Assembly: GCA_028864885.1 (NCBI GenBank)
Contig: JAGWLR010000010.1
Coordinates: forward strand, 1-55,645
Length of the DNA stretch: 55,645 nt
Direction of reading: 5' to 3'
DNA from: Burkholderiales bacterium
GTDB lineage: Bacteria; Pseudomonadota; Gammaproteobacteria; Burkholderiales; Burkholderiaceae_C
Position 1 is the first letter of the stretch. Each line of letters opens with the position of its first letter. The notes beneath the pieces are model-generated. The model searched no databases. It was not told the origin of the DNA and saw only the letters and a list, made by a program, of their open reading frames with translations. The position numbers and the translations under genes are program-made. Shown here piece after piece: positions 14,231 through 51,403 of the stretch.

Positions 14231-14468
14231 GGCGTCAATGTGCCCTATCAGGAAACCTTCAGCAGTATAGGCTCTGACCAACCGGTAACCGGCGGAATAA
14301 GAGGCGAGAGACCGGTCTGTTGGATAAATCTGAGATCCCACCGCCGCGATTCAAGTTCCGCCCCCCTAAATTGTGGCGGCTTCGTCACGCTTGCCGTTCG
14401 GCGAACGCGCACGTCCGATGCTAAGGTACGCAAACTCTCCACTTTTCACCGCGAAAGACCGTTTTCCA

Positions 14469-17273
14469 ATGCGCCAACCCGCCGTGTCCGCCTCCCCCGT
14501 TTTTCAAGGGCTGATCACCTGGATGGCATATACCCTCACGGGCTTGGCATCGATGTGGCTGGCCACCACCGGTTCGCATGTGTCGCAGTTGTACTTGGCC
14601 GCTGGCATTGGCTTGGGTCTGACCCTGGGCTGGGGTTTGAGCATGCTATGGGCCGTCGGTGCTGGCTGCGCCAGTGTGGTGCTGATTGCGCAAGGGTGGT
14701 TGCACCCGGAACTCAAGCTGGAGGTGGTGGGATTGGAAGCCTTGCTGTCGGGCCTGGGGGCGGCCCTGCAGGCGTGGCTGGGTATCCGCCTGACTGTCGG
14801 GCGTGCCGGTCAGCCGCTGCACCTGGATCGCCCTGGCGCGATTTTGCGTTTCCTGGTGCTGGCCGGCCCGATCGCCTGTCTGACCAATGCCGTGGTTTCT
14901 GTTCAGACCATGGCGGCGCTTGGCCTGATTCCGGCGCATACCAGCACCGACTACATGGTGCGCTGGTGGGCCGGCGACACCATGGGTGTGGTGCTGACCA
15001 CCCCCCTGGTGTTGACACTGGTCGGGCAACCTGAAAGCCTGTGGCGCGCTCGCCGCTGGGTGGTCGGTGCACCGATGGTCGCGGCCACCTTGTTGCTGGG
15101 AGTCGCCATCCACCAGGTTCAAAACTGGGATCAGGAACGCGAAACGGCCGTGTTTGAACGCGATGTCACGGCCTTGGCAGACGAAGTCAAGTTGAAGCTC
15201 AACGGCTACGTCGACGCAATTGAAGCTCTGCATAGTGTTTACCAGGCTTCGGATGACGTCACCGCCGGCGAATTCGCGACGGCGAGCCGGTACTGGCTTC
15301 AAACTCTCGACGGCCTGCAGGCCCTGGGTTGGGCTGAGCACGTCACCCAGCCTCAGTTGAACCATTTCGAAGCGCAAGCGCGGGCGGAGGGACTCGTGGG
15401 CTACCGTGTGTTCAATCGCGACAGACTGACCGATGAACGCGTACCGGCCGTGGGCAACGAATTCATCGCTTTGCGCTACATCGAACCCAAATTGGGGAAT
15501 GAGCGGGCCTTGGGCCTGAACATCCTGGGTCTGGACCCAACCCGGCAGGCTTATGAGCAGGCCCTGGCGGCCAATCACCCGGTGGCCACGCGGGGCTTCC
15601 TGTTGACTCAGGAGATGGCACGTCAGCTCGGGGTGGTGATCTATCACCCAGTCTATCTGCCTGACCGAGGATCTCACACGAACGGCACCCATGCAGTCAT
15701 GGGCGCGGTGTTTCTGACCCTGCGCATGGACGACATGGTCCACGCCATGTTGCAAGGCCTGCCGCGCTACTTGAGGGCCTGTCTGTTGGAAAGCACGGAT
15801 GGGAACGAGGGCGTCAACCTGTTGGGAGGCCCGCCCAACTGTCATCAAAACGACTGGGGACGCCACGCGCGCCATCGAGATGTGCTGCCATTGACCTTTG
15901 CAGATCGGTCGTGGCAACTGGTCGTGTGGGCACATGATCCCGTTCCGCTGGTGGGCCGAGGCACCTCGTCGTCGTGGTTGTCGATCGGCGGGGTCATCGC
16001 CGCCACAGCCTTGTGTGCGATGCTGCTCGTGATCTCGGGACACACCCAAAAAATCGAACAAACCGTCAAAGAGGCGCGCGAGCAACGCCAGGCGGCAGAA
16101 GCGGCCAGCCAGGCTAAAAGTGAGTTTCTGTCTCGCATGAGCCATGAATTGAGAACACCGCTCAATGCGGTGCTGGGTTTTGCCCAGGTCATGGACATTG
16201 ACGCTCACTCGCCCTTGCCACCGGTTCAGCATCAGCGTCTGAAGCAAATCCAGCAAGCGGGCTGGCACTTGCTGGACATGATCGACGACGTCTTGGACAT
16301 CTCGCGGATCGAAACCGGCACCTTGCGACTGGCTGCCGAGCCGGTGCCGATGGGGTCGGCCATCAGCCAGGCCTGCGCCGAGCTGCAAGCCCAGGCCAGC
16401 AATTTGGGCATCCAGTTGATCTGGCCGCAAGACGTGCCACCCGATTGGGGTGCCCAGGCTGACCCGGCTCGTCTGCGTCAGATCCTGCATACCTTGCTCG
16501 ACAACGGGATCACATACAACCAGCGCCCCGGTTCGGTCACGGTGAGCGTGTCGCGGCAACAAACCGCAGACGGCCAGGCCAAGATGGTCATCACCGTGAA
16601 AGACACCGGGATGGGGATGTCGGAAGAGCAGGTGGCCCAGTTGTTCCAGCCTTTCAACCGGCTGGGACGTGAAAAGCAGGTGCCTGATGGCGCAGGCGTG
16701 GGCTTGGCGATCAGCCGCCATCTGGCCAGCCTGATGGGTGGCGAACTAGAGGCCAGCAGCCGCGAGGGTGAAGGAGCGGCATTCACCTTGTCATTGCCAG
16801 CCGCACGCATCCAGACCGCCGCCCCTGCCGCACCGGCCCCACGCGCCGAATCACCGGTTGCCCCCTCAGACACGCCCCGCCATGTGCTGTATGTCGAGGA
16901 CAACCTGGCTAACAGTGAGGTGGTTCGAGCCGCCTTGGCCAGCCGACCGTGGATTCAATTGAGCGTGGCGCCGACGATCGAGCAAGGGCTTGCGGTTCTG
17001 CACAATCGCCTGCAAGGACCCAGGCCTGGCTTGATCCTGTTGGATGTGCATTTGCCGGATGCCTCGGGATTGGAATTTCTGCGACTGGTCAAAGCCAACC
17101 CCGAAACGTCTGACACCCCCGTCATCATGGTGTCAGCCGATGCCATGCCGGAGCAGATCGAAGCAGCGCTGAAGGCTGGTGCCGCTTGCTACCTGACCAA
17201 GCCGGTTCAATTGACTGAACTGCTCAACCAGGTCGATGCCTTGCTGAAAGACACGCCACAGGCATCGGCCTGA
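14469..17273 (+). CDS. Hybrid sensor histidine kinase, MASE1-CHASE-HisKA-HATPase-REC
   Basis: A 934-residue inner-membrane sensor. Residues about 10-215 form a MASE1-like block of hydrophobic segments. Residues about 225-450 form a periplasmic CHASE domain (segments such as GLQALGWAEHV and GYRVFNRDR). A further membrane segment lies at about 503-522. The dimerisation/phosphoacceptor domain carries His559 (SHELRTPLNA). The ATPase domain has a DTGMGMS motif, and the attached receiver has Asp859 in LLDVHLPD. The signal is unknown; CHASE domains elsewhere bind small ligands. Starts at 14373 and 14418 are possible, but 14469 places the first membrane segment near the N-terminus. No output regulator is adjacent. 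Confidence 0.9.
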   Translation: MRQPAVSASPVFQGLITWMAYTLTGLASMWLATTGSHVSQLYLAAGIGLGLTLGWGLSMLWAVGAGCASVVLIAQGWLHPELKLEVVGLEALLSGLGAALQAWLGIRLTVGRAGQPLHLDRPGAILRFLVLAGPIACLTNAVVSVQTMAALGLIPAHTSTDYMVRWWAGDTMGVVLTTPLVLTLVGQPESLWRARRWVVGAPMVAATLLLGVAIHQVQNWDQERETAVFERDVTALADEVKLKLNGYVDAIEALHSVYQASDDVTAGEFATASRYWLQTLDGLQALGWAEHVTQPQLNHFEAQARAEGLVGYRVFNRDRLTDERVPAVGNEFIALRYIEPKLGNERALGLNILGLDPTRQAYEQALAANHPVATRGFLLTQEMARQLGVVIYHPVYLPDRGSHTNGTHAVMGAVFLTLRMDDMVHAMLQGLPRYLRACLLESTDGNEGVNLLGGPPNCHQNDWGRHARHRDVLPLTFADRSWQLVVWAHDPVPLVGRGTSSSWLSIGGVIAATALCAMLLVISGHTQKIEQTVKEAREQRQAAEAASQAKSEFLSRMSHELRTPLNAVLGFAQVMDIDAHSPLPPVQHQRLKQIQQAGWHLLDMIDDVLDISRIETGTLRLAAEPVPMGSAISQACAELQAQASNLGIQLIWPQDVPPDWGAQADPARLRQILHTLLDNGITYNQRPGSVTVSVSRQQTADGQAKMVITVKDTGMGMSEEQVAQLFQPFNRLGREKQVPDGAGVGLAISRHLASLMGGELEASSREGEGAAFTLSLPAARIQTAAPAAPAPRAESPVAPSDTPRHVLYVEDNLANSEVVRAALASRPWIQLSVAPTIEQGLAVLHNRLQGPRPGLILLDVHLPDASGLEFLRLVKANPETSDTPVIMVSADAMPEQIEAALKAGAACYLTKPVQLTELLNQVDALLKDTPQASA

Positions 17274-21637: not shown

Positions 21638-22668
21638 GTTCCGGTGCGCTGCTGCGACTGCGAATGGGGCGAGTTGTCGGCCGACAAGCCTTGGCCCAGG
21701 GCACGCCGGACCACATACACCGGGCGGTTTTTGACCTCTTCGAAGATGCGCGCCACGTATTCGCCCAGGATGCCCAGCGAAATCAACTGGATGCCGACGA
21801 AGAACAGCAGGCAGACGATGATGGTCGTCCAGCCGGACACAGGGTTGCCGTGCACAAGGTAATCCTCTGTGATGAAGGCGCCATAGGCAAAAGCCAGTGC
21901 GGCCAGGATGAGGCCGACGATGCTGGCGAATCGCAGGGGCCAAGTGGTGAACGCCGTCAGACCATCAATCGAGAACGCCAGCAGCCGCAGGGCGTTGTAG
22001 TTGGTCACCCCGCTGGCGCGCTCGGCCGGCTCATAGGGGATCGCCACCGATTTGAAGCCCACCCAGGCATACAGGCCCTTCATGAAACGATTGCGCTCAG
22101 GCAGGGATTGCAAGGCGTCAACCACGGCACGGTCCATGAGGCGGAAATCACCGGCGTCCGGCGGCACCTGAAAGCGCGACTTGGCGTTGATCAGTTTGTA
22201 GAAGGTGCGGGTGCCCACTTGCTTGAACAGGGATTCGTCGTCGCGGTTGGCGCGCAAGGCGTAGACCACGTCGGCGCCTTTTTGCCAGTGCTGCACCATC
22301 TCGGCAATCAGCTTCGGGGGGTGCTGCATGTCGGCGTCCATCAAGACCACGGTTTCACCACAAGAGGCTTCTAGGCCGGCGGTCAGCGCCGCTTCTTTGC
22401 CAAAGTTGCGCGAGAACTCGATCGCACGGAATCCGGGGCGATGCGCCCATTGAGCCAGCACCTCGGACGTGTCGTCACGGCTGCCGTCGTTGACCAGAAT
22501 CACCTCCCAATCCCGGCTGCATTGCGACAGGTGCTCGACCAGCAAAGGCAGCAACAGGCGCAGGTTGGCCGCTTCGTTGTAGCAGGGAATCACGCAACTC
22601 AGGGTCGGCAGCTCATTGCGCGGAACCACGGCGAAATAAGGAGTGGAGGCTGGCATGGTAAATCGCAT
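21634..22668 (-). CDS. GT2 polyprenyl-phosphate glycosyltransferase (ArnC/DPM-like)
   Basis: A 344-residue glycosyltransferase that should load a sugar from a nucleotide donor onto undecaprenyl phosphate. The GT-A domain begins TLSCVIPCYNEAANL, with VLMDADMQHPP as the metal-binding DxD and NFGKEAALTAGL nearby. Two C-terminal membrane segments (about 238-262 and 274-298) are typical of ArnC/GtrB-like enzymes. First gene of the operon. Start is either 22668 or 22656; neither has a clear ribosome site. It diverges from the DUF1653 gene with only a few tens of bases between. Confidence 0.88.
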   Translation of the reverse strand: MRFTMPASTPYFAVVPRNELPTLSCVIPCYNEAANLRLLLPLLVEHLSQCSRDWEVILVNDGSRDDTSEVLAQWAHRPGFRAIEFSRNFGKEAALTAGLEASCGETVVLMDADMQHPPKLIAEMVQHWQKGADVVYALRANRDDESLFKQVGTRTFYKLINAKSRFQVPPDAGDFRLMDRAVVDALQSLPERNRFMKGLYAWVGFKSVAIPYEPAERASGVTNYNALRLLAFSIDGLTAFTTWPLRFASIVGLILAALAFAYGAFITEDYLVHGNPVSGWTTIIVCLLFFVGIQLISLGILGEYVARIFEEVKNRPVYVVRRALGQGLSADNSPHSQSQQRTGT

Positions 22669-22699
22669 TCAGGGAAGGCGCGCCGATTATCCTCTCAGG

Positions 22700-22942
22700 A
22701 TGAGCTCATCCCACCCTTTACCCGCCCTACCCCAACTGCCCCTGGGGCGATACCAGCACCACAAGGGCGGGCTGTACGACGTCCTTGGTGTGGTCCGCCA
22801 CAGCGAGACGCTGGCACCGCTGGTGCTGTATCGCCCGGTCGAGTCAGACGGCTCACTGTGGGTGCGCCCGTTCGACATGTTCACCGAGCAAGTGCAGATC
22901 GATGGCCGGTTGGTGGCTCGGTTTCGCTTTTTGGGCGGCTGA
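22700..22942 (+). CDS. DUF1653 domain protein
   Basis: An 80-residue small protein of the DUF1653 family. The characteristic order is visible: GRYQHHKGGLYDVLGVVRHS, then a LVLYRP segment, then WVRPFDMFTEQV. The function of the family is unknown; it is thought to be a compact beta-barrel. A longer reading from an ATG at 22655 has a good GGAGG but would share its CATG with the divergent GT2 start, so the ATG at 22700 is preferred. Confidence 0.85.
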   Translation: MSSSHPLPALPQLPLGRYQHHKGGLYDVLGVVRHSETLAPLVLYRPVESDGSLWVRPFDMFTEQVQIDGRLVARFRFLGG

Positions 22943-23017
22943 AACTCACCCAAAATCCCAAATGATGAGATAAATCAGGGGTTTTCGCGGGATTGTTCAC
23001 GCCCGGATCGAGGATAA

Positions 23018-23578
23018 ATGTCTCAGGTGGGGTCGGGCTTTGGTCTGATTCCTCGTGAGTCATTCCTGACGTTCGCAATGCCCTTGATTCCAGTCGAAAA
23101 CATCGCCAACCAACTCGAGCCAGCGTGGGCTTTCTTGAGTGGGCACCTACGTCATTTCGCGCCAGCTGGAGTGCAAATGCCCAGGGCCGGAGAAACAGAA
23201 CACCGAGTGGTCTTGCCCGTCAAGCTGATGGACGGACATGGCTTGGTCGCCGTCGGCGTCATGCTTGACGACGATCAGGCTGAAGCAGTGGCTCGCTACA
23301 TGTTTGGTCAGCCTGAGGGGGAAATTTGCCCGGCTGACCTGCAGGACGCTTGTCTGGAGACCTGCAACGTTCTGGCCAGCAGCGTCATCAAAGGGTATGA
23401 GCATCCTGATGTCATCGACATTGGTCTGCCTCAATCCGTGTCAGCACGAACTTACGCTGATTTGCAGAACCATGCCAACGTTCGGGTCACTCTCATGAGT
23501 GAAATCGACCATGAACACCGCATTGTCGTTACCGTATTCGATGTAAAAGATCAAAGCGTTCTGGAGTCCTACCTATGA
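23018..23578 (+). CDS. CheC/CheX-type phosphatase domain protein
   Basis: A 186-residue soluble protein that I assign to the CheC/CheX/FliY phosphatase fold. The helix at 107-120 carries Asp110, Glu114 and Asn117 in the D-x3-E-x2-N pattern of CheC-type active sites, with Pro138 twenty residues later. A second such motif is absent, as in CheX. The protein should dephosphorylate a receiver domain, and the next gene encodes one. GAGGA lies close before the ATG at 23018; an alternative ATG is at 23078. The stop overlaps the next start (ATGA at 23575), so the products are probably made in fixed ratio. No cheA or chemoreceptor gene is in the window. Confidence 0.65.
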   Translation: MSQVGSGFGLIPRESFLTFAMPLIPVENIANQLEPAWAFLSGHLRHFAPAGVQMPRAGETEHRVVLPVKLMDGHGLVAVGVMLDDDQAEAVARYMFGQPEGEICPADLQDACLETCNVLASSVIKGYEHPDVIDIGLPQSVSARTYADLQNHANVRVTLMSEIDHEHRIVVTVFDVKDQSVLESYL

Positions 23579-24648
23579 GTGCAACCCCCGAATCCCGGCC
23601 GGATGCATACCGCTTCCTGATTGTCGACGACAGCCGCGCCATCCAGGCCATTGTGCGTCGCGTCGTCGAGAGTTGCGGTTATCCCAACGCCGACATCCGC
23701 GGAGCCTCAAATGGTGAGGAAGCTCTGCAGATGCTCGAAACTTTCAAGCCTCAATTAGTCATCACTGACTGGCATATGCCGAAAGTATCCGGCCTGGAGT
23801 TGCTTCAGGCCATGCGGCAATCCAGCATGACGGACATCAAGGTGGGGTTCATCACCACAGAATCGTCGGAAAGCATGTTGAACCAGGCTCGCACCAATGG
23901 GGCCACCTTTGTGCTCAACAAGCCATTCAAAGACGACGTCTTGATTCAGTACGTCAATGAAGCTGTGCCTCTGCCGCAAGCTGCTGCCCCTGCCACTACG
24001 CCTAACGCCTCGCCATCCGAGCCAGAGTTTCCCGAACCCGTCGCACGGACGGCAGAGACACCGCAGGCCGCTGCCGATCAAGCTCCAGCGCCTCCCACGG
24101 CTCCCACGCCGACAGCACCGGCAAGTGCGATCGCAACGCCCCCCCCCAAGGCGACCCTAGCAAATGCAATGCCGCTGATGAGGACCGAGGATTGCCAACG
24201 GCTGGTGCATGCCACTTTGCAAGAGATCCCGTTCAGACTCATTCGCCACGAAGATCTGCACACTAAAGATTTGACGGCGAAAAACCTGATTGGACTGTAC
24301 GCCGGGCCGAACAAGCCGATTGCAGCGTTGTGTGTGCTCGACACTCATTCGATCTGCATTTTCGGCGGAGGTGCTGGAAAAATGCCACCCCATGTCGTGC
24401 GAGCAGCGATGGCCGCAGGCGCTCCAAGCGAGGCCATGGTGCAAAACGCTACCCGCTTCATGCAGACCGCTGGTGCTGTACTGCATCTCGAATCGGCGAC
24501 CGGGGCAATTCCTCTATCGCGAACCAGCCTGGTTCCGCAGAATTTCAAGAAACTGGAGGAGTTGCTGCAGAAAAATTCGGGCAGCGCCCACTTTCGCATT
24601 TCTGTACCGGGCTACGGCGAAGGTCGTTTCTCGTTCCTTGCCGTTTGA
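23575..24648 (+). CDS. CheY-like receiver with Pro/Ala linker and unknown C-terminal domain
   Basis: A 357-residue response regulator. The receiver (about 12-130) is complete: Asp18/Asp19, phospho-acceptor Asp65 (ITDWHMPK), Thr94 and Lys116 (LNKPF). A linker of about 65 residues (130-195) rich in Pro, Ala and Thr follows. The C-terminal domain (about 200-357) has no DNA-binding, GGDEF, EAL or methylesterase motif. Its order of elements, with LIGLYAG, PIAALCVLD, FGGGAGKMPP and SEAMVQNATRF, suggests a diverged CheC/CheX-like fold without the active Glu-Asn pair. This is a weak inference. It is translationally coupled to the upstream phosphatase gene. Confidence 0.8.
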   Translation: MSATPESRPDAYRFLIVDDSRAIQAIVRRVVESCGYPNADIRGASNGEEALQMLETFKPQLVITDWHMPKVSGLELLQAMRQSSMTDIKVGFITTESSESMLNQARTNGATFVLNKPFKDDVLIQYVNEAVPLPQAAAPATTPNASPSEPEFPEPVARTAETPQAAADQAPAPPTAPTPTAPASAIATPPPKATLANAMPLMRTEDCQRLVHATLQEIPFRLIRHEDLHTKDLTAKNLIGLYAGPNKPIAALCVLDTHSICIFGGGAGKMPPHVVRAAMAAGAPSEAMVQNATRFMQTAGAVLHLESATGAIPLSRTSLVPQNFKKLEELLQKNSGSAHFRISVPGYGEGRFSFLAV

Positions 24649-24657
24649 GAGACCCAG

Positions 24658-25584
24658 ATGCAGATCGAACAACTGGCAATCCTCTTTGTCTTTGTTGGCA
24701 ACGCCGCCTCCATCGTGATGCTGGCTTTCATGCTCTACAAGATTTCCAAGCAAACTGAAGCCACTCACACCCTACTGGCTGGAGGTACACAAGACCTCAT
24801 GGATGCCGGCAAGCGCTTGCGTGACGCCCTGAAATCAACTGATCGTTTGGTGGATCGGCTCACGGACATGAACAACCGGGCAGACACCTCAACACCCCCC
24901 CCCGCTCCGAGCGAAGTGGACGAACAGTTCCGCAAAATCGAGGCCATGATTCAGGACCTGTCGTCTGATCGCCGATACGAAGACCACGGCAAATTTCTTG
25001 AAGACATCAAGGGCTTGCTGGACTCCTTGACTGGAGTAAAGCCAGAGGGGTTATCTCAGTGGCGCGACGATCACCAGAATAAGCTCGAGACTGCTCAGGT
25101 TCAACGAAATCGCATGGCCACCGAGATGGAAGCGCTCAAGGGCCGACTAGACGACGCTAACCGAATCATTCAAGAGTTACGACGCTCGGTTCGCTTGGCC
25201 GAAGCTGCCAGCCAGTCGACGGATGCGCTCCGTGCCAGCCTGGATCAGCACCAACAATTGCTGGCTCGGGCCAAGGAAAAGGCACAACAAGCCGAAGCGC
25301 GGTGTGCGACTCTCAGTCGCGAAATTGAATTACTGGAGGCCGAAGCTGGCCGAGGCGATGGCAAGAGTGACCGCCCCTCGACATCGGCTCTGCGCCGTCA
25401 ACTGGACGAGGTCACGCGAGAGCGTGACGGCATGAAGAACCAGCTGGATCAGCTGCGCGACATGATGCAACGCACCCTGGTAGAAAAAGAATTCATCGAA
25501 GAAAAACTGTTGGATCTGGATGCCGCAGCGTACTCGTCTCGAGCATCAACCACCGCCCCCGATTCCCAACTCCCTCAGGGCTGA
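24658..25584 (+). CDS. Membrane-anchored coiled-coil protein
   Basis: A 308-residue protein of unknown function. One hydrophobic segment at about 7-28 anchors it in the membrane with a very short N-terminal side. Most of the rest is polar, with heptad-like stretches (about 38-75, 150-225 and 230-290) rich in Gln, Glu, Lys, Arg and Ala, so a long cytoplasmic coiled coil is expected. It starts nine bases after the receiver gene and completes the three-gene unit, perhaps as a scaffold. Its 3' end overlaps the convergent ferredoxin gene by 39 bases. Confidence 0.75.
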   Translation: MQIEQLAILFVFVGNAASIVMLAFMLYKISKQTEATHTLLAGGTQDLMDAGKRLRDALKSTDRLVDRLTDMNNRADTSTPPPAPSEVDEQFRKIEAMIQDLSSDRRYEDHGKFLEDIKGLLDSLTGVKPEGLSQWRDDHQNKLETAQVQRNRMATEMEALKGRLDDANRIIQELRRSVRLAEAASQSTDALRASLDQHQQLLARAKEKAQQAEARCATLSREIELLEAEAGRGDGKSDRPSTSALRRQLDEVTRERDGMKNQLDQLRDMMQRTLVEKEFIEEKLLDLDAAAYSSRASTTAPDSQLPQG

Positions 25585-25866
25585 AGGCGACTCAATCACC
25601 ACGTCGCTGATCGGACGCGCCACACACGGCAGGATCCAACCCGCCTCTCGCTCGTCGACACTCACCCCTGGCCACTCGATGCTGTAGACCACCTGCCCGC
25701 TGATCAGGCGGCACAGGCAGGTTCGGCAGGTCCCGTTGAGGCAGCTACTGGGCAAACGAATCCCAGCGCGCCGAGCCGCCTTCCAGATCGACACGCCAGC
25801 CGGCACCGGACAGACCCATCCCTGGGGTTCAATCCGCAACTGAAAAACCACTGGATTCGTGACCAT
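25546..25866 (-). CDS. 2Fe-2S ferredoxin, plant type
   Basis: A 106-residue single-domain ferredoxin. The cluster ligands are visible as SSCLNGTCRTCLC (C-x4-C-x2-C), with the fourth Cys in the segment ILPCVARP some 30 residues on. It probably serves as a soluble electron carrier; the partner is unknown. The start at 25866 (ATG) places the domain at normal length. The much longer frame to 26235 crosses the putative promoter region of the divergent gene and is unlikely. It converges with the coiled-coil gene. Confidence 0.85.
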   Translation of the reverse strand: MVTNPVVFQLRIEPQGWVCPVPAGVSIWKAARRAGIRLPSSCLNGTCRTCLCRLISGQVVYSIEWPGVSVDEREAGWILPCVARPISDVVIESPSALRELGIGGGG

Positions 25867-25940
25867 CCCGAGAGGATAGCGCCCCTCGTTGAATGCGTGT
25901 TTTCCCGACCCCAATTCGCGTGATCTACCGAAAACCCGAA

Positions 25941-25956
25941 GTGATACAAACATCAC
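25941..25956. promoter_or_regulatory. Inverted repeat GTGAT-N6-ATCAC, possible operator
   Basis: A perfect 5-bp dyad separated by six bases lies in the 280-base divergent region between the ferredoxin gene and the plus-strand membrane gene. It is the right size for a dimeric regulator but does not match CRP (TGTGA-N6-TCACA) or FNR (TTGAT-N4-ATCAA). The region otherwise holds a possible short ORF (26035-26127) and no clear promoter. Confidence 0.35.
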
Positions 25957-26034
25957 AATCCTGCACACTTCATGCTGTGTCGTAGCGACACCCCTTGTGC
26001 CGAGAAGTATTCCTGAATACCCGCTGGAGAAAAC

Positions 26035-26127
26035 ATGACATCGTATGTGCTGGCGGCAGCTTGCACGATGACCGTGATGGACTTCCATCGAAGAGGCTGG
26101 CCTGTCGCCCCCTACAGCAAGCTTTGA
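26035..26127 (+). CDS. Possible 30-codon leader ORF
   Basis: A short reading frame of 30 residues starts with ATG at 26035, seven bases after a good GGAGAA ribosome site. It ends 19 bases before the membrane-protein gene at 26147. No family resemblance and no run of a single amino acid that would suggest attenuation. The strong ribosome site is the only positive evidence. It may be a small protein, a translational leader or chance. Confidence 0.3.
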   Translation: MTSYVLAAACTMTVMDFHRRGWPVAPYSKL

Positions 26128-26146
26128 ACACCCGGAGCACCACCAC

Positions 26147-26806
26147 ATGGCCCAACCCCACTGGCATTCCTTGCGCTTGGCCGCATTGGCCTCCGGCCTG
26201 TGTTTGTTTGCCTTGATGGTGCTCTCGTTGAGCACGGGTGCGAATCAACAGCATTTCGAGCAGGTGATGGCGCCGCAGGTCTACGCACACGACCTGTTGG
26301 CACAAGCCGCAGGGCTGCGCTGGATCATCGCGCTCGACGACGTGTTCATCGCGTGTTACATGACGGTAGGAATTCTGTTTGCGCGGCAATTGGTGGGCCC
26401 AACCGCCCATGCCTTGCGGCCGTGGATCGTGGGCATGAGCGTGGCCGCTGGGGTGCTGGATTTTCTAGAGAATCATCACATTCTGGCCATGCTGCATCAA
26501 GCCCAAACCGGTGGGGTGCCCGATTACAGCTATCTGGTTTTGCGAGAGAACCTCAGCGCCATGAAGTGGTTGCTCGGCCACTCGGCGTTCTTCTTGGTGG
26601 GCTGGTGCTTGCCCACGCACTCCATTCCGCTCAGGTTGTTTCAGTGGGCCTTGTTGTTCGTCCAGTTACCGATCGGCGCGCTGACACTGACGGTGCAGGA
26701 CCCAGCATGGGCTCCTGCGCTGAATTTGATACGCCTGATCAATGTGATGATGGGATTCTTTCTGGTGGCATGGTTGTTTCCCAGCCCCCCAACTGAGCCA
26801 CAGTGA
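26147..26806 (+). CDS. Hypothetical integral membrane protein
   Basis: A 219-residue protein not recognised. It has about five to six hydrophobic segments (roughly 11-31, 57-80, 92-110, 140-156, 160-180 and 193-212). Polar motifs sit between them: ALDDVF near residue 62, FLENHHIL near 107 and LRENLSAMKW near 132, so clustered Glu, Asn and His could bind a metal or cofactor. GGAG lies nine bases before the ATG. The last 68 bases overlap the 3' end of the convergent alpha-hydroxyacid dehydrogenase gene. Confidence 0.7.
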   Translation: MAQPHWHSLRLAALASGLCLFALMVLSLSTGANQQHFEQVMAPQVYAHDLLAQAAGLRWIIALDDVFIACYMTVGILFARQLVGPTAHALRPWIVGMSVAAGVLDFLENHHILAMLHQAQTGGVPDYSYLVLRENLSAMKWLLGHSAFFLVGWCLPTHSIPLRLFQWALLFVQLPIGALTLTVQDPAWAPALNLIRLINVMMGFFLVAWLFPSPPTEPQ

Positions 26807-30363: not shown

Positions 30364-31635
30364 TCAGCGCAGATTACCGGTATGGCCCAGGGAGTAACGT
30401 CCTGGCAGAGGCCACACTGTCAAACCATGCGGCTCCATGCCGACTTTGATCTCACGCATTTGCCCGTTGGTGGTGTCAATCCGATAGACCACGTCATCGA
30501 AGCGACCAGATAACCACAACCAGCGGCCGTCGGCGCTGACGTTACCCATGTCGGGGCTGCCGCCGCCCGGCACCGGCCACTGCGCCACCACCTTTTCGGT
30601 GGCGAAGTCGATCACAGAGACACTGCCCTTGCCGTGTCTGGGCCCGTGAATCTTGTGCGAACCGCGGTTGGCCGCATACAAGCTCTTGCCGTCGCGGCTG
30701 GGATACAGGCCGTGGGTCGCGACCCCGGTGGGGATGAAACCCACCTCCTGGAAGGCATCGCCGTCGATCACGTGCACGCCATCGGCCTCCATGTCGGCCA
30801 CGAAAAAGCGCTTACCGTTGGGTGACACCCGCACATCCTGCGGCATGCCTTTGCGTGACGTGCAGATTTCACTGGCCACGGGGCCCGCCAGAGACGGCAC
30901 CTCTTTGAAGCGCGTCTTGGGCATCTTCAGCTTCAGATAGCCCACCACCGAGCGGTGCACCAGATCGATCTTGGCAATGCTGCCATCGAACTCGCAAGTG
31001 AAGATGGCATAGCGACCATCTATCGAAAAATCGGCGTGGTTGATCCCGCCACACTGGGGCACCTCGATGGCGTACTGCATGGCCATGGTCTTGGGATCAC
31101 GAAAATCCAGGCGATGACGCGCCTCGGCCACCACGATGGCCGACTTGCCGTCCGGCGTGAAGTACAGGTTGTAGGGGTCGTCCACCGGCACAGCTTGACC
31201 CGGTTTGCCAGTACGCGGATCAATGGGGGTCAGGCTGCCCGATTGGCGACGCTCGGCATTGTTAGCCACCCACAGCGTGCGCAGATCCCACGAGGGCACG
31301 ATGTGCTGGGGAGACTCGCCAACCTTGAAGCGATCGACCACCTTCATGGTTTCGGGATCAATGACCGAGACGTCGTCAGAGCGCAGATTGGGCACATACA
31401 CCCGCACCAGATCCCCTTTCAGGGCGGGGCTGACTTTGCCAGGCGCCGTTTCGCTGTAAAGGTTGCGCGGATCCAGCACCGGCGGCATGCCCGCCACCGT
31501 GGCCACGGGTGCCGTGGCACCCCCCGGTTGGGCTGCCGGCGCAGAAACTGCTGACCGAACGAAAGCGTGCGGCGCCAGCCACGCCGCAACGGCGGCCACG
31601 CCGCCCAGAATCAGCACTCGAACTGTTGTCTTCAT
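30364..31635 (-). CDS. Exported YVTN/YncE-type beta-propeller protein
   Basis: A 423-residue secreted protein. A signal peptide occupies about 1-35. The rest is a seven-bladed propeller of YncE/cytochrome-d1 type, with repeated blade strands such as RSDDVSVIDPETMKV, NGKRFFVADMEADGVHVID and GKGSVSVIDFATEKVV. No c-type haem motif (CxxCH) is seen, so it is not an electron carrier by itself. The start at 31635 is preferred over a GTG at 31662 because it gives a normal signal peptide. It directly follows the exported creatininase gene. Confidence 0.8.
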   Translation of the reverse strand: MKTTVRVLILGGVAAVAAWLAPHAFVRSAVSAPAAQPGGATAPVATVAGMPPVLDPRNLYSETAPGKVSPALKGDLVRVYVPNLRSDDVSVIDPETMKVVDRFKVGESPQHIVPSWDLRTLWVANNAERRQSGSLTPIDPRTGKPGQAVPVDDPYNLYFTPDGKSAIVVAEARHRLDFRDPKTMAMQYAIEVPQCGGINHADFSIDGRYAIFTCEFDGSIAKIDLVHRSVVGYLKLKMPKTRFKEVPSLAGPVASEICTSRKGMPQDVRVSPNGKRFFVADMEADGVHVIDGDAFQEVGFIPTGVATHGLYPSRDGKSLYAANRGSHKIHGPRHGKGSVSVIDFATEKVVAQWPVPGGGSPDMGNVSADGRWLWLSGRFDDVVYRIDTTNGQMREIKVGMEPHGLTVWPLPGRYSLGHTGNLR

Positions 31636-31662
31636 GAAAGTCTTGGTGTGTGGGGCCAGCAC

Positions 31663-32496
31663 TCAGTGGCTGCCAGCCAACTCCCTGATGGCTTCAACGG
31701 ATGAGGCCACGATTCGGTGGACACCCATTTGCCCCAGATCAGCCGTTGCGCGGCGCGGATCACCATAAACCCCCTCAGATGGGGTCCAGGGGCGGCTTGC
31801 ACGCAGGGCCTCCTGGCGCACCGACTGCGGATCAACGGCCAGGCTCAGCGAGGTGTCGGCCAGGCCGGCATGGGTGCCGATTTCGGCCTCGCTGTGGCCC
31901 TTGGTTTTGAGATCGGCCACATAGCCCTGCTGGGTGACGTCATAGTAGGTGCGCAATGCCACCACCCTGGCCGAGCCGAGCTTGGCCCCAGGCTGACTCA
32001 ATTTGGCCGCCACCCGCGCCTCGCTTTTTTGATAGCCACCGTGATCGCCGAGGAACACCACGGTACGAAACCCGTGTTGAATCAGGCTGCGCGCGGCCCC
32101 CTCCAACATGCCTTCAAAGGCGCTGTCGGGGATGGAAATGGTTCCGGTGAAGCGCATGTGGGCAGCTGGCGGCCGGATCGACCCTTCTGGCACGTAGCTG
32201 ATCACCGGGGCCACCACGGCGTCACCCAGTTGCCGGGCAATCATGCCGGCCAGCGCACGCGCCCGGGCATTGTGCTTGCCCAAGGTCATGACTGGCCCGT
32301 TCTGCTCGGTCCCACCAATCGGGATCAACGCAATCGTGGCCCCCTGTGCGATGCGATCGCGCAATTCTGGCGAGGTCATGTCTTCCAGGTAGACCGAGGC
32401 TGGCGCCGACGTCGCGGCCCAGGTGCAACTCGACACCGCCCACCCCAACAAGAGGCTGGCCATGCCACGCCGCCACATCACCTTGATTGTTGCCAC
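31663..32496 (-). CDS. Exported creatininase-family amidohydrolase
   Basis: A 277-residue protein of the creatininase superfamily, with a signal peptide at about 1-28. The metal and catalytic residues are visible: IGGTEQNGP, GKHNARA, FLGDHGG and GTHAGLADTS. Family members hydrolyse creatinine, formylated intermediates or act in redox-cofactor maturation such as mycofactocin (MftE). Most are cytoplasmic, so export is unusual. The start is a GTG at 32496 with GGAGG five bases upstream. It sits directly before the beta-propeller gene. Confidence 0.82.
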   Translation of the reverse strand: MATIKVMWRRGMASLLLGWAVSSCTWAATSAPASVYLEDMTSPELRDRIAQGATIALIPIGGTEQNGPVMTLGKHNARARALAGMIARQLGDAVVAPVISYVPEGSIRPPAAHMRFTGTISIPDSAFEGMLEGAARSLIQHGFRTVVFLGDHGGYQKSEARVAAKLSQPGAKLGSARVVALRTYYDVTQQGYVADLKTKGHSEAEIGTHAGLADTSLSLAVDPQSVRQEALRASRPWTPSEGVYGDPRRATADLGQMGVHRIVASSVEAIRELAGSH

Positions 32497-32534: not shown

Positions 32535-32837
32535 TCAAGCCCGCATGTCGAGCAGGAATCCCGTCATCTGATCTTGCGTCTTGATGACTTTCAAGTTGGC
32601 GATGTACTCGTAACTCGCGGCCTTGTGTTGCACCAGGTCGTTGGCCAGTGCATCGCCCTCGGCAGCCGAAAAGCTCAGGGTGGTTTTGACCCCACCCAGG
32701 GCGGCCTCGGCGGCTTGAGACACTTGCTGACGCCGGAAATGGGCCGTCTGCACGTTGGCAACGTTGTGAGCCGCGACATCCATGCGAAGGGAGGCCGCGT
32801 TGACGCCCGTGAGGGCGATGGCAGAAGCTGAGCTCAT
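32535..32837 (-). CDS. Short flagellar rod/hook-like protein
   Basis: A 100-residue protein that joins the two conserved ends of flagellar rod and hook proteins. The N-terminal motif GVNAASLRMDVAAHNVAN matches the helical D0 start of FlgB/FlgC/FlgG-type proteins. The C-terminal part (ANDLVQHKAASYEYIANL, then VIKTQDQMTGFLLDM) matches the FlgC-like end. The usual central domains are missing. No other flagellar gene is in the window. It may be a minimal axial component or an orphan derivative. Confidence 0.75.
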   Translation of the reverse strand: MSSASAIALTGVNAASLRMDVAAHNVANVQTAHFRRQQVSQAAEAALGGVKTTLSFSAAEGDALANDLVQHKAASYEYIANLKVIKTQDQMTGFLLDMRA

Positions 32838-47662: not shown

Positions 47663-50600
47663 TCATCCAGCCGAAGGCCGGCGCATGCACTGCGTCATCG
47701 TCGACACGAGCTTGCGCAAATCGTAAGGCTTGCTGACGTGCGCCACCATGCCGGCTGCATCACAAGCCGCCAGCGCGTCACCGAAAGCATGTGCCGTCAG
47801 ACCGATCACCGGCAAGGTGGGGTCGATCACCAGAATACGCCGCGCCGCTTCATAGCCATCCATGACCGGCATTTGCACATCCATCAAGACCACATCAAAC
47901 GCACCCGCGCCACGCGATTCGACCAAGTCGACCGCTTCCCGCCCATCTCGCACCATGGTGAACTCGGCCCCTTCCATGGTGAGCAATTCGCGCAGCACGA
48001 TTTGATTCACGTCGCTGTCTTCGGCCGCCAACACCTTGACCCCATGCAGGCTGGGCTCGGTCCGTTCCCGGCGCACCACGGGTTTGAGTTCGGCGGACTG
48101 CCGCTGCAGGGAATGGGTGGGCGCACCGCCCTCAATGGGCAGATACACCACGAAGCGACTGCCTCGTCCGGGAGTGCTTTCAACTTCAATGCGACCGCCC
48201 ATCAACTCGACCAGGCGCTTGCTGATGCTCAAGCCCAAACCGGTGCCGCCATAGCGGCGCGTGGTGGACGAATCAGCCTGTTTGAATGGCTCGAACACCG
48301 CCTCCAGCTCCTCGGCAGTCATCCCTATACCCGTGTCGACAACGGCCAGCCCCACCGAGGGACCCGATCGGAAGGCCACCAACCGAACCGATCCTTGTTC
48401 CGTGAACTTGACAGCATTGGACAGCAAGTTCAGCAGCACCTGCTCGATCCGCAGGGCATCGCCATCAATGGTCTGGGGCAGATCACGCTCGATCGTCACC
48501 TCCAGGCTCAGGCCTTTGGCCTGTGCCCGATTGAGCATCATGTCAGCCGTTTCGCGCAACAGGTGTTGCAACTCAATGGGCCGCGACTCAATCACCACCT
48601 GCCCCGCTTCGAGCTTGGAGATGTCCAGGATGTCATTGAGCACACCCAACAACAGCCGCCCGGAATCGAGAATGGTTTCGAAGGTCTTTTGCGCTGGCTG
48701 GCCCGAGCTTTCCAGATAGCCCAATTGCGCCAGCCCCAAGACACCGTTCAAGGGCGTGCGGATTTCATGGCTCATGTTGGCCAGGAACTCGCTCTTCACC
48801 CGGGCCAGGCGCTCAGCCTCTTCCCGAGCGGCTTCGCGCTCGCGATCCAGGGCACGCTGCTCGGTCACATCGCGGATCACAGCAATCGCCTCCCGATCGC
48901 CCAGTGGCAACAGGCGTGCTTCGTAGATCTTGGCCGATTCGCCCTCTTCGCTGGCAGGCAGTTCGTAGTCGATCACCTTCTGGCCCTGGGCTTTTAGCAA
49001 CGACAACGCATCGGTCAAACGTTGCGCGCCTGAAGCCGGCAAGCCTTGCTGCAAGCGCATCCCTCGCTGTAGTTGATACAAGGTCACGCGCTCACCGACG
49101 CCGGCGCGGTGGTCGATGATGGTGCCATCCAGCGCCAGGCGGAAGTACTGGTCGGGCAAGGCCTGAAACAGGCTGTCGAGCTCGGCAGTGCGCAGCGACA
49201 CGGCCGACTCCAGCCGTTCATTGTGATAGGTCAGGTTCTTCGTGGCCTGCTTCTGCAGGGTGATGTCGACGAAAGATTCGAGCTGGAACGCGTCATCGGC
49301 CAGGTTGATGCGAGTAGCCGACCACACGACGTCCCGCCGATCTCCCTGGCGGGTCAGCAGGGTGCTTTCGACACGGTCAATGTCTTCGCCCCAGCGCAGG
49401 CGCTGGATGGCCTCCAGCCGGTCATGGACGGTATCAGCCGGCCAGATCTGCAGCTCATCGACGTGTCGCCCGACGATGTCACCACGCTCCAACCCCGCCA
49501 GGCGTTGCCATGATTCGTTCACATCGACCACGACCTGGTCGTTCAAGCGGCACAGCAACATCCCCACCGGACTGGTGAGGAACATCTGCGAAAACCGGGC
49601 CTCGCTTTGCGCCAACCGGGTTTGCGCCTGGGCTTGGGCCAGGGCGGCCTCACGCGCCTCCAAGGCCATGCCCACGGTTTCGGCCAGGCGCAGCACCAGT
49701 TGCCGGATGGCGTCGTCAAAGAACGCCGGCGCATCCATATAGAGATTGCAGATGGCCCGAACCTGGCCCTCGGCTTTCAGCGGCAGGCTGACCATCGAGC
49801 GGAAACCCGCCGCCAAGGCCTTGTCCCGCCAGGAGATGACGCTCGGATCCTGGGCCACGTCATCGCAATATTGGGGCACACCCAGATGGAAGGTACGGGC
49901 GGTCGGGCCCCATTGCTTCGCGTCGCCGTTCAAGGGCAGCACCAGCTTGCTGGCATAGTCAGTGGGCTCGCCGGACCAGCATTGGGGCACGATCCGGTGT
50001 TGCTCTTCATCAGGCTCGCCGACGAAAGCCAGCTTGACGCCTCCGTATTGCACCACCACATCGCACACAGCCTGGTACAGGGCTCGCGCCTCCAGCTTCT
50101 GCGCCGCCACTTCATTGATGCGCAACAAAACCTGGTAGACCCGGTTCAGACGCTCCACTCGTTGCTCGTTGGCGCGGTGCTGCGTGATGTCGCGCGACAA
50201 GCCCAGCACACCAATCACCTGCCCCTTGGCGTCGAGCATGGGGGTTTTGACGGTTTCGACACGCTCGGTGTGACCATCGCTGGCATAGGTCAAGTCGCGT
50301 TCGTCAATCACCACCCCACCGCTGGCGATGGCTTGCTCGTCGCTGCGACGAAACGCCTCGGCCACATCGAACGACACCAGATCGGCATCACGCTTGCCAA
50401 CGATCTGGCCTTCGGGTGCGCCGACGAATTGTTCGAACCGGGCATTGCACAGCCGATAAAAGCCCTTGACGTCCTTGAGCCAAACCAAGTCCGGCAAGGT
50501 ATTGATCAGGGTTCGCAAGAATTGGCGCTCATCCTGCAAGGCCGCCGTGCGCTGACGCACCATGCGCCGCAGGAAAAATCCCCACAAGGCAAAGCCCGAC

Positions 50601-51403
50601 ACCAGGATGGCCCCGCCCGCTAAGCCGTAAATCGCATAGCGCCGCCAAGGTCGCCAGGAAATGGGGGAACCCAGCCACTTGTCGCGCAGGCCTTGCATCT
50701 CGCTTTCGGAGATTTCGGAAAATCCCGATTCGATTTGATCGGCGAGCACCTGATCTTGCGGGCGATAGGCACGATGAAATTGGCCGGTGTAGAGCACAAA
50801 GGCCTTGCGGAATCGGTGATCGATGCCAGCCCGGTACATGAGGTAGTTGGCCGGCGGCTCGTCCATGCAGAACACCCTGAGGCGATTGGCCTTGGCCTCA
50901 TCGATCATGGTCTCGTAACTGTCAAACCGGGCGTCAACCAGCACATCCTGCTTGCGAAGCATCTCTACGCAGGCATCACCCGCTTTGGCCCCCACCAGAA
51001 AGCCCTTCAGGCCGCCCAAGCTGGTGATGCCGCCGATTTCCCGGTCCGTGTAAATCGGCACCGGAATGTCGGCGTAGGGTGCCGAGAAATGATAGAGCTG
51101 GTCTCGCTCCTTGGTGCGGAACATCGTGTCGATGACGTCCCCGGTGCCGCTTTCGAACAGGCGCTGGGTCTGCGCCCAATCCCGGGCGATCAGATGCACA
51201 TGGCGTCCGGTTTTCTGTTCCCACAAGTGCCAGAGATCAACCGTCAAACCGGTCAACTCTCCCTTTTCATCACGGAAGATGAAAGGCGGGTAATGCTCAT
51301 CAGCCAGGACCGTGATGTCCTTGGCAGGGGCGGCGGCGTGAACCTGTGCCCAGAACAGGCAGGCCAGGAGCCACCACCAGCGGGGTCGGGCTAGGTACGT
51401 CAA
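47663..51403 (-). CDS. Large hybrid histidine kinase: SBP-PAS-GAF-PAS-PAS-HisKA-HATPase-REC
   Basis: A 1246-residue membrane sensor. A signal peptide (1-26) is followed by a periplasmic solute-binding domain of SBP_bac_3 type (about 28-245, beginning [16 protein letters not shown]). A membrane segment lies at about 255-280. PAS domains lie at about 290-410, 600-720 and 740-850, with a GAF-like domain at about 425-590. The phosphoacceptor is His879 ([10 protein letters not shown]). The ATPase domain has DTGIGMT, and the receiver has Asp1175 ([11 protein letters not shown]) and Lys1225. The ligand is probably an amino acid or similar small solute. The start is a TTG at 51403. Confidence 0.9.

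Follow-up and report, generated by a model that had tools for sequence, protein, structure and literature searches.

The closest described counterparts of the locus analysed here are the CheX/CheY pairs of Borrelia burgdorferi and Thermotoga maritima, which likewise comprise a stand-alone CheX with an ExxN motif and a CheY-like target, and which share the fold of the first protein of the locus (PDB entries 3hzh, 1squ and 1xko). CheY-CheZ pairs also combine a receiver with a dedicated phosphatase, CheZ being a helical protein that is unrelated to CheX. PMC3510030 attributes to CheZ a DxxxQ motif, unlike the ExxN of CheX, and, together with PMC3035606, identifies E and N as the CheX catalytic pair acting on phospho-CheY. 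The window, i.e. the whole 55,645-nt stretch of DNA analysed here (it is contig 137 in a genome of 3.5 Mb), contains three consecutive genes on the forward strand (23018-23578, 23575-24648 and 24658-25584), whose order and coupling agree with the original prediction: genes 1 and 2 overlap by the four bases ATGA, and gene 3 begins nine bases past the stop codon of gene 2. Although the association of CheX with a CheY-like protein is already known, the presumed target in this trio differs from that of the CheX/CheY pairs in being a regulator of 357 aa that carries an additional output domain and is coupled to a membrane coiled coil, and gene 1, unlike the Borrelia and Thermotoga proteins, is only weakly similar to the Pfam CheX model. 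A search of the open-access literature, outside which most subscription papers lie, retrieved no description of the trio, nor of the added output domain, its relationship to a CheY-adjacent protein or the membrane coil. The trio would represent a conserved, testable module by which flagellated, CheZ-bearing bacteria link a CheX and a CheY-like protein to the membrane.

Each of the three proteins shares 42-78% identity with its counterparts in the aligned relatives, so that the reading frames are not due to chance. A profile of the output domain identified at least 24 places in at least 19 of 399 family genomes, and we compared 30 regulator loci in all: that of the window, those of six genus relatives taken by name (assemblies of Aquabacterium sp. 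or Burkholderiales bacterium) and 23 other places with the output domain. The gene for the coiled coil lies directly downstream of the regulator in 25 of the 30 loci; upstream DNA is available for 29, and in 14 of these a CheX gene immediately precedes the regulator. The co-occurrence of the three genes, on which the original prediction had been staked, is therefore conserved, with the qualification that CheX is not obligatory, as it is missing from 15 of those 29 loci. Four-base overlaps occur in several loci, that between CheX and the regulator being found in the window and in L014; in L044, L053 and L061, the called frame of the coil extends back across the regulator, making its start position uncertain. 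Third-position GC in the window trio (0.59-0.64) is mostly below that of its neighbours in the window (0.67-0.80 for most) and below that of the listed trio genes in the relatives (0.67-0.88). A consensus scan, which carries little weight, found no sigma-70-like site in 22600-25900.

Gene 1 (23018-23578, 186 aa) is predicted to encode a CheX-type phosphatase, as indicated by Pfam, an AF2 model, Foldseek and profile comparison. Its similarity to the Pfam CheX model (E 1.9e-4, 21.9 bits) is below the gathering score of 27, and four of its relatives scored from 13.2 to 26.9 bits. Nevertheless, a model built by AF2 from seven rows (pLDDT 67.7) had as its best PDB match 3hzh_B, a chain of the Borrelia CheX-CheY complex (Foldseek E 2.1e-7, TM 0.62/0.73), and all 31 PDB matches with E<=0.001 were CheC/CheX-type or flagellar-switch entries (FliM, FliY, C-ring), upholding the CheC-like fold that the original prediction expected for this protein. 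Additionally, a profile of 11 homologues of gene 1 aligned with 28 CheX proteins from the phylum with a probability of 88.7 (E 2.5e-6); these came from 28 of 30 CheX loci, and since their ORFs were chosen by the motif, this comparison cannot test the motif itself. The proposed phosphatase motif is in place as D110-x3-E114-x2-N117 (23345-23368), with P138 downstream (23429-23431), and all 14 homologues compared retain its D, E and N together with the proline. The start at 23018 is preceded by a GAGGA-like site, but L016, L017 and L019 have no ATG in this frame before the codon equivalent to 23078, and the true start may be there instead. A search with the protein found relatives in seven of 61 genomes, including that of the window.

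Gene 2 (23575-24648, 357 aa) codes for a response regulator whose CheY-like receiver domain (residues 13-127, 23611-23955) is intact, as had been proposed (Pfam Response_reg, 1.2e-23): its active site is complete, comprising D18 and D19, the putative phospho-acceptor D65 (23767-23769), T94 and K116. These residues are invariant across five aligned rows, and the corresponding phosphorylation residues (DD, D, T, K) occur in 30 of 30 regulators. The top NCBIfam model was CheY, at 59.3 bits against a cut-off of 189, and 25 of the 28 PDB sequences matching the receiver at E<=1e-12 were CheY, a protein over-represented among PDB entries. A proline- and alanine-rich linker separates the receiver from an output domain of approximately 158 residues (residues 200-357, 24172-24645) that, in agreement with the output originally described as being of no recognised type, has no Pfam family: a Pfam scan of 23 output domains yielded nothing meaningful (nine families, each matched by a single domain, lowest E 0.0057), and the best PDB sequence match was a de novo design (E 0.009). 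The model of the domain (pLDDT 48.5) is unusable, and Foldseek gave no match for it at E<=0.001.

Sequence comparison identifies the output domain as a homologue of a stand-alone protein that other gammaproteobacteria encode directly behind CheY-like genes. A wider profile of the domain had matches in at least three of 369 genomes sampled from the class; one was the genome of the window, and the other two matches were stand-alone proteins encoded directly behind a receiver-only gene. A profile of these two proteins then detected the family in nine of 147 genomes of one source order, counting the source genome, and in one of three of the other, this being the source itself. When the output domains of 23 regulators were compared with ten stand-alone proteins, hhalign returned a probability of 97.4% (E 1e-11) over 146 columns, consistent with descent of both from a common ancestor. 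By visual inspection, the stand-alone gene starts 19-43 bases behind a receiver-only CheY-like gene in all ten loci. E-x2-N is kept in 10 of 10 stand-alone proteins; in the aligned columns of the 30 regulators, E was present in one, N in none, and both residues in none. The gammaproteobacterial gene pair and gene 2 have the same two kinds of domain adjoining, but the former are separate genes with ExxN retained, whereas the latter is a single protein lacking ExxN to which CheX and the coil are added.

The stand-alone proteins gave no Pfam family (ten members scanned) and no NCBIfam family (three scanned), and constitute a protein family new to these scans from chemotaxis loci L064-L077 and L081-L083. 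Their neighbourhoods were read further in five stretches, by eye except where noted: L066 has CheR, CheD and CheB types and an MCP gene (by Pfam), L067 has CheA, CheW and CheR types, and L083 has CheA, CheW and CheD types, while L081 (CheB, CheD and CheR types) and L082 (CheB type) also contain an FlrB/FlrC-like kinase-regulator pair. All 22 family genomes tested have CheZ, as against none of the ten that carry the stand-alone protein; among 66 FliM-bearing genomes of one order, CheZ occurred in 18 and the stand-alone protein in nine, the two were never found together, and 39 genomes had neither of them. As an indication that the stand-alone protein replaces CheZ this is weak (P approximately 0.045, with kinship ignored).

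We also considered the output domain as a degenerate CheX, prompted by the motif that the stand-alone proteins carry and by the succession of secondary structure elements. Neither hhalign nor Foldseek supported this: the output domain and the stand-alone protein matched CheX with an hhalign probability of only 0-4% (alignments A3 vs A4, A6 vs A7 and A9 vs A7; A6 excludes the regulator loci L078-L080), as did alignments A3, A6, A9 and A10 against the 28 CheX proteins, and the low-confidence model of the domain resembles that of CheX solely in the order of helices and strands. A more elaborate scenario, which we regard as doubtful, is that the domain comes from an undescribed family of CheY partners whose stand-alone members would be CheY-P phosphatases with a CheX-like ExxN where CheZ is absent; the copy in Burkholderiaceae would have been fused to a receiver and lost catalysis, serving now as a sensing or docking surface, with a true CheX recruited as eraser and the membrane coil as anchor. 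If so, the regulator would be a CheY carrying its own dead phosphatase.

Gene 3 (24658-25584, 308 aa) encodes a putative membrane-anchored protein with a single N-terminal hydrophobic segment (residues 8-26, 24679-24735, hydropathy 2.42), confirming the one-segment topology originally assigned to it. The rest of the protein is probably a coiled coil, judging from its composition and from Pfam and NCBIfam matches that were to coiled-coil families alone, all of them below cut-offs. Lysine or arginine occurs within the 12 residues past the membrane segment in 23 of 23 homologues, and ahead of it in only two of 23; since positive residues sit after the segment and rarely before it, the coil should face the cytosol, and we consider it probably cytosolic. 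The protein does not appear to be a chemoreceptor, because MCPsignal was absent from its Pfam matches up to E 1, nor could it be assigned to any named scaffold, as no family exceeded its cut-off.

Taken together, these features suggest that the trio could be a signalling branch derived from chemotaxis, with a kinase encoded elsewhere, a reset by CheX and a membrane-tethered output, a reading to which we give about an even chance of being correct. A kinase encoded elsewhere, most likely CheA and otherwise the hybrid kinase at 14373-17273, would phosphorylate D65 of the receiver; phosphorylation would then alter the binding of a partner by the output domain, most likely the membrane coiled coil encoded directly downstream, and the active regulator would thereby work at the membrane, possibly on a receptor array or the flagellar motor. 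The output domain, devoid of E-x2-N, should act through binding and not catalysis, and CheX would reset the switch by removing the phosphate via E114 and N117. The CheX fold and residues, the CheY-like receiver, the conserved gene order, the homology of the output domain and the orientation of the coil argue for this model, as do the occurrence of FliM in all 32 genomes tested, a single CheA-family match in the trio-bearing genome G239, a pair of MCP genes at L045 and the chemotaxis genes near the stand-alone proteins. Conversely, FliM is common in the family, MCP genes are scarce near the loci, CheX is often missing, all the family genomes tested have CheZ, the window trio lies beside envelope-type genes and the model of the output domain cannot be used.

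The first alternative concerns these neighbours. The absence of kinase, methyl-accepting and flagellar genes from the vicinity, claimed in the original prediction, does not hold for the kinase: a MASE1-CHASE-HisKA-HATPase-receiver hybrid histidine kinase (14373-17273, forward strand) lies 5.7 kb upstream of the trio and is a candidate phosphodonor, and a second hybrid kinase (47663-51403) lies 22 kb downstream. The trio adjoins genes of envelope type (one glycosyltransferase by Pfam, the others by eye) and not chemotaxis genes, and one phmmer search found no MCP gene in the window; across the 30 loci, phmmer detected MCP genes in three, two of them without CheX, and at L045 two such genes are directly upstream of the trio. 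The MASE1-CHASE kinase could drive the trio as a two-component branch controlling the envelope genes between them, and not motility; four of the six genus relatives taken by name (L015, L016, L017 and L019) indeed have the C-terminal part of a related kinase on this side of the trio. However, a phmmer search with the kinase core found no kinase in any of the 23 stretches at family level (L044-L063 and L078-L080, each of 9-16 kb), the kinase has a receiver of its own, and the receiver of the trio is closer to CheY than to other models, all of which leaves this alternative improbable.

A kinase elsewhere, as the chemotaxis-derived branch requires, also bears on the original view of the trio as a self-contained signalling device, which is not supported: none of the three genes codes for a kinase, and the genome of the window has three CheA-family (PF02895) matches, all on other contigs. 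Likewise, a connection to flagella is suggested by FliM, present in 32 of 32 tested genomes carrying either the output domain or a stand-alone homologue, although FliM is frequent in the family as a whole (235 of 299 genomes). Given this base rate, finding it in each of the 22 tested family genomes that have the output domain is weak evidence for a flagellar link; 19 of these 22 are from the set drawn for the profile search of the family, and the chance of finding FliM in all 19 at the base rate is 0.01 (0.786 to the 19th power), or 0.06 when counted by genera (12th power). Genomes G020, G027 and G030, which belong to the genus, bear the regulator and are of lower completeness, were omitted from the CheZ and FliM counts.

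A second alternative is that CheX acts mainly on the flagellar CheY, with the regulator serving as a decoy or sink for phosphate while the coil merely holds it at the membrane. Known CheX enzymes do act on CheY (PMC3510030), and PMC8789113 reports a motility suppressor of Vibrio cholerae with a secondary mutation in vc0377, a gene of the CheX family that has only a candidate role there. We nonetheless judge this alternative to be rather unlikely: CheX is coupled to the regulator by the four-base overlap in the window and in L014, its presence tracks the regulator tree, the genome also has CheZ, on another contig, and a sink would leave the conservation of the output domain unexplained.

The regulator tree bears on the composition of the module as well. 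It contains a well-supported clade of 12 members in which CheX is absent and a group of 17 members, with moderate support (91/82), that holds all 14 CheX loci together with L048 and L051, which lack CheX, and L047, which is cut; L063, also without CheX, sits apart on a long branch. Five genomes (G088, G213, G239, G295 and G355) have one regulator of each kind. From these topologies and the locus counts, we conclude that, at the level of sequence, regulator and coil are the core of the module and that CheX belongs to one of its branches. The 12-member clade and loci L048, L051 and L063 would also fit a device made of regulator and coil alone, with CheX an occasional passenger lacking a dedicated role, but there is little likelihood of this given that CheX, where present, keeps its catalytic residues in 14 of 14 cases and stays directly upstream.

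Two further genes flank the trio in the window, and we make no claim that either is part of the module. A DUF1653 gene (22700-22942, forward strand; PF07866, 2.2e-24) is also found upstream of the trio in all six genus relatives. Downstream, on the reverse strand and convergent with gene 3, there is a 2Fe-2S ferredoxin gene (25546-26235; Fer2, 4.4e-14) whose true start is uncertain. A ferredoxin gene is near 10 of the 14 CheX-bearing loci (window, L015, L016, L018, L019, L044, L046, L049, L050 and L053) and none of the 16 others, in compared stretches that differ in length. It occurs in more than one arrangement, since it converges on the coil gene in members of the genus and at L046 but is located ahead of CheX in L050 and L053, and it may provide a redox link to the module. 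Farther downstream, a creatininase-type gene lies beside a YncE-like beta-propeller gene (30364-32496), and lookalikes of these, identified by eye, flank the regulator-coil pair of L060. Finally, a small orphan ORF whose N-terminus resembles a flagellar rod protein (32535-32837, reverse strand) matched Flg_bb_rod with E 7.6e-4 and 19.8 bits, against a cut-off of 20.7, and similar rod-like ORFs were seen by eye near the trios of genus relatives L009 (12984-13283), L011 (5670-6005), L012 (13871-14170) and L013 (1036-1374).
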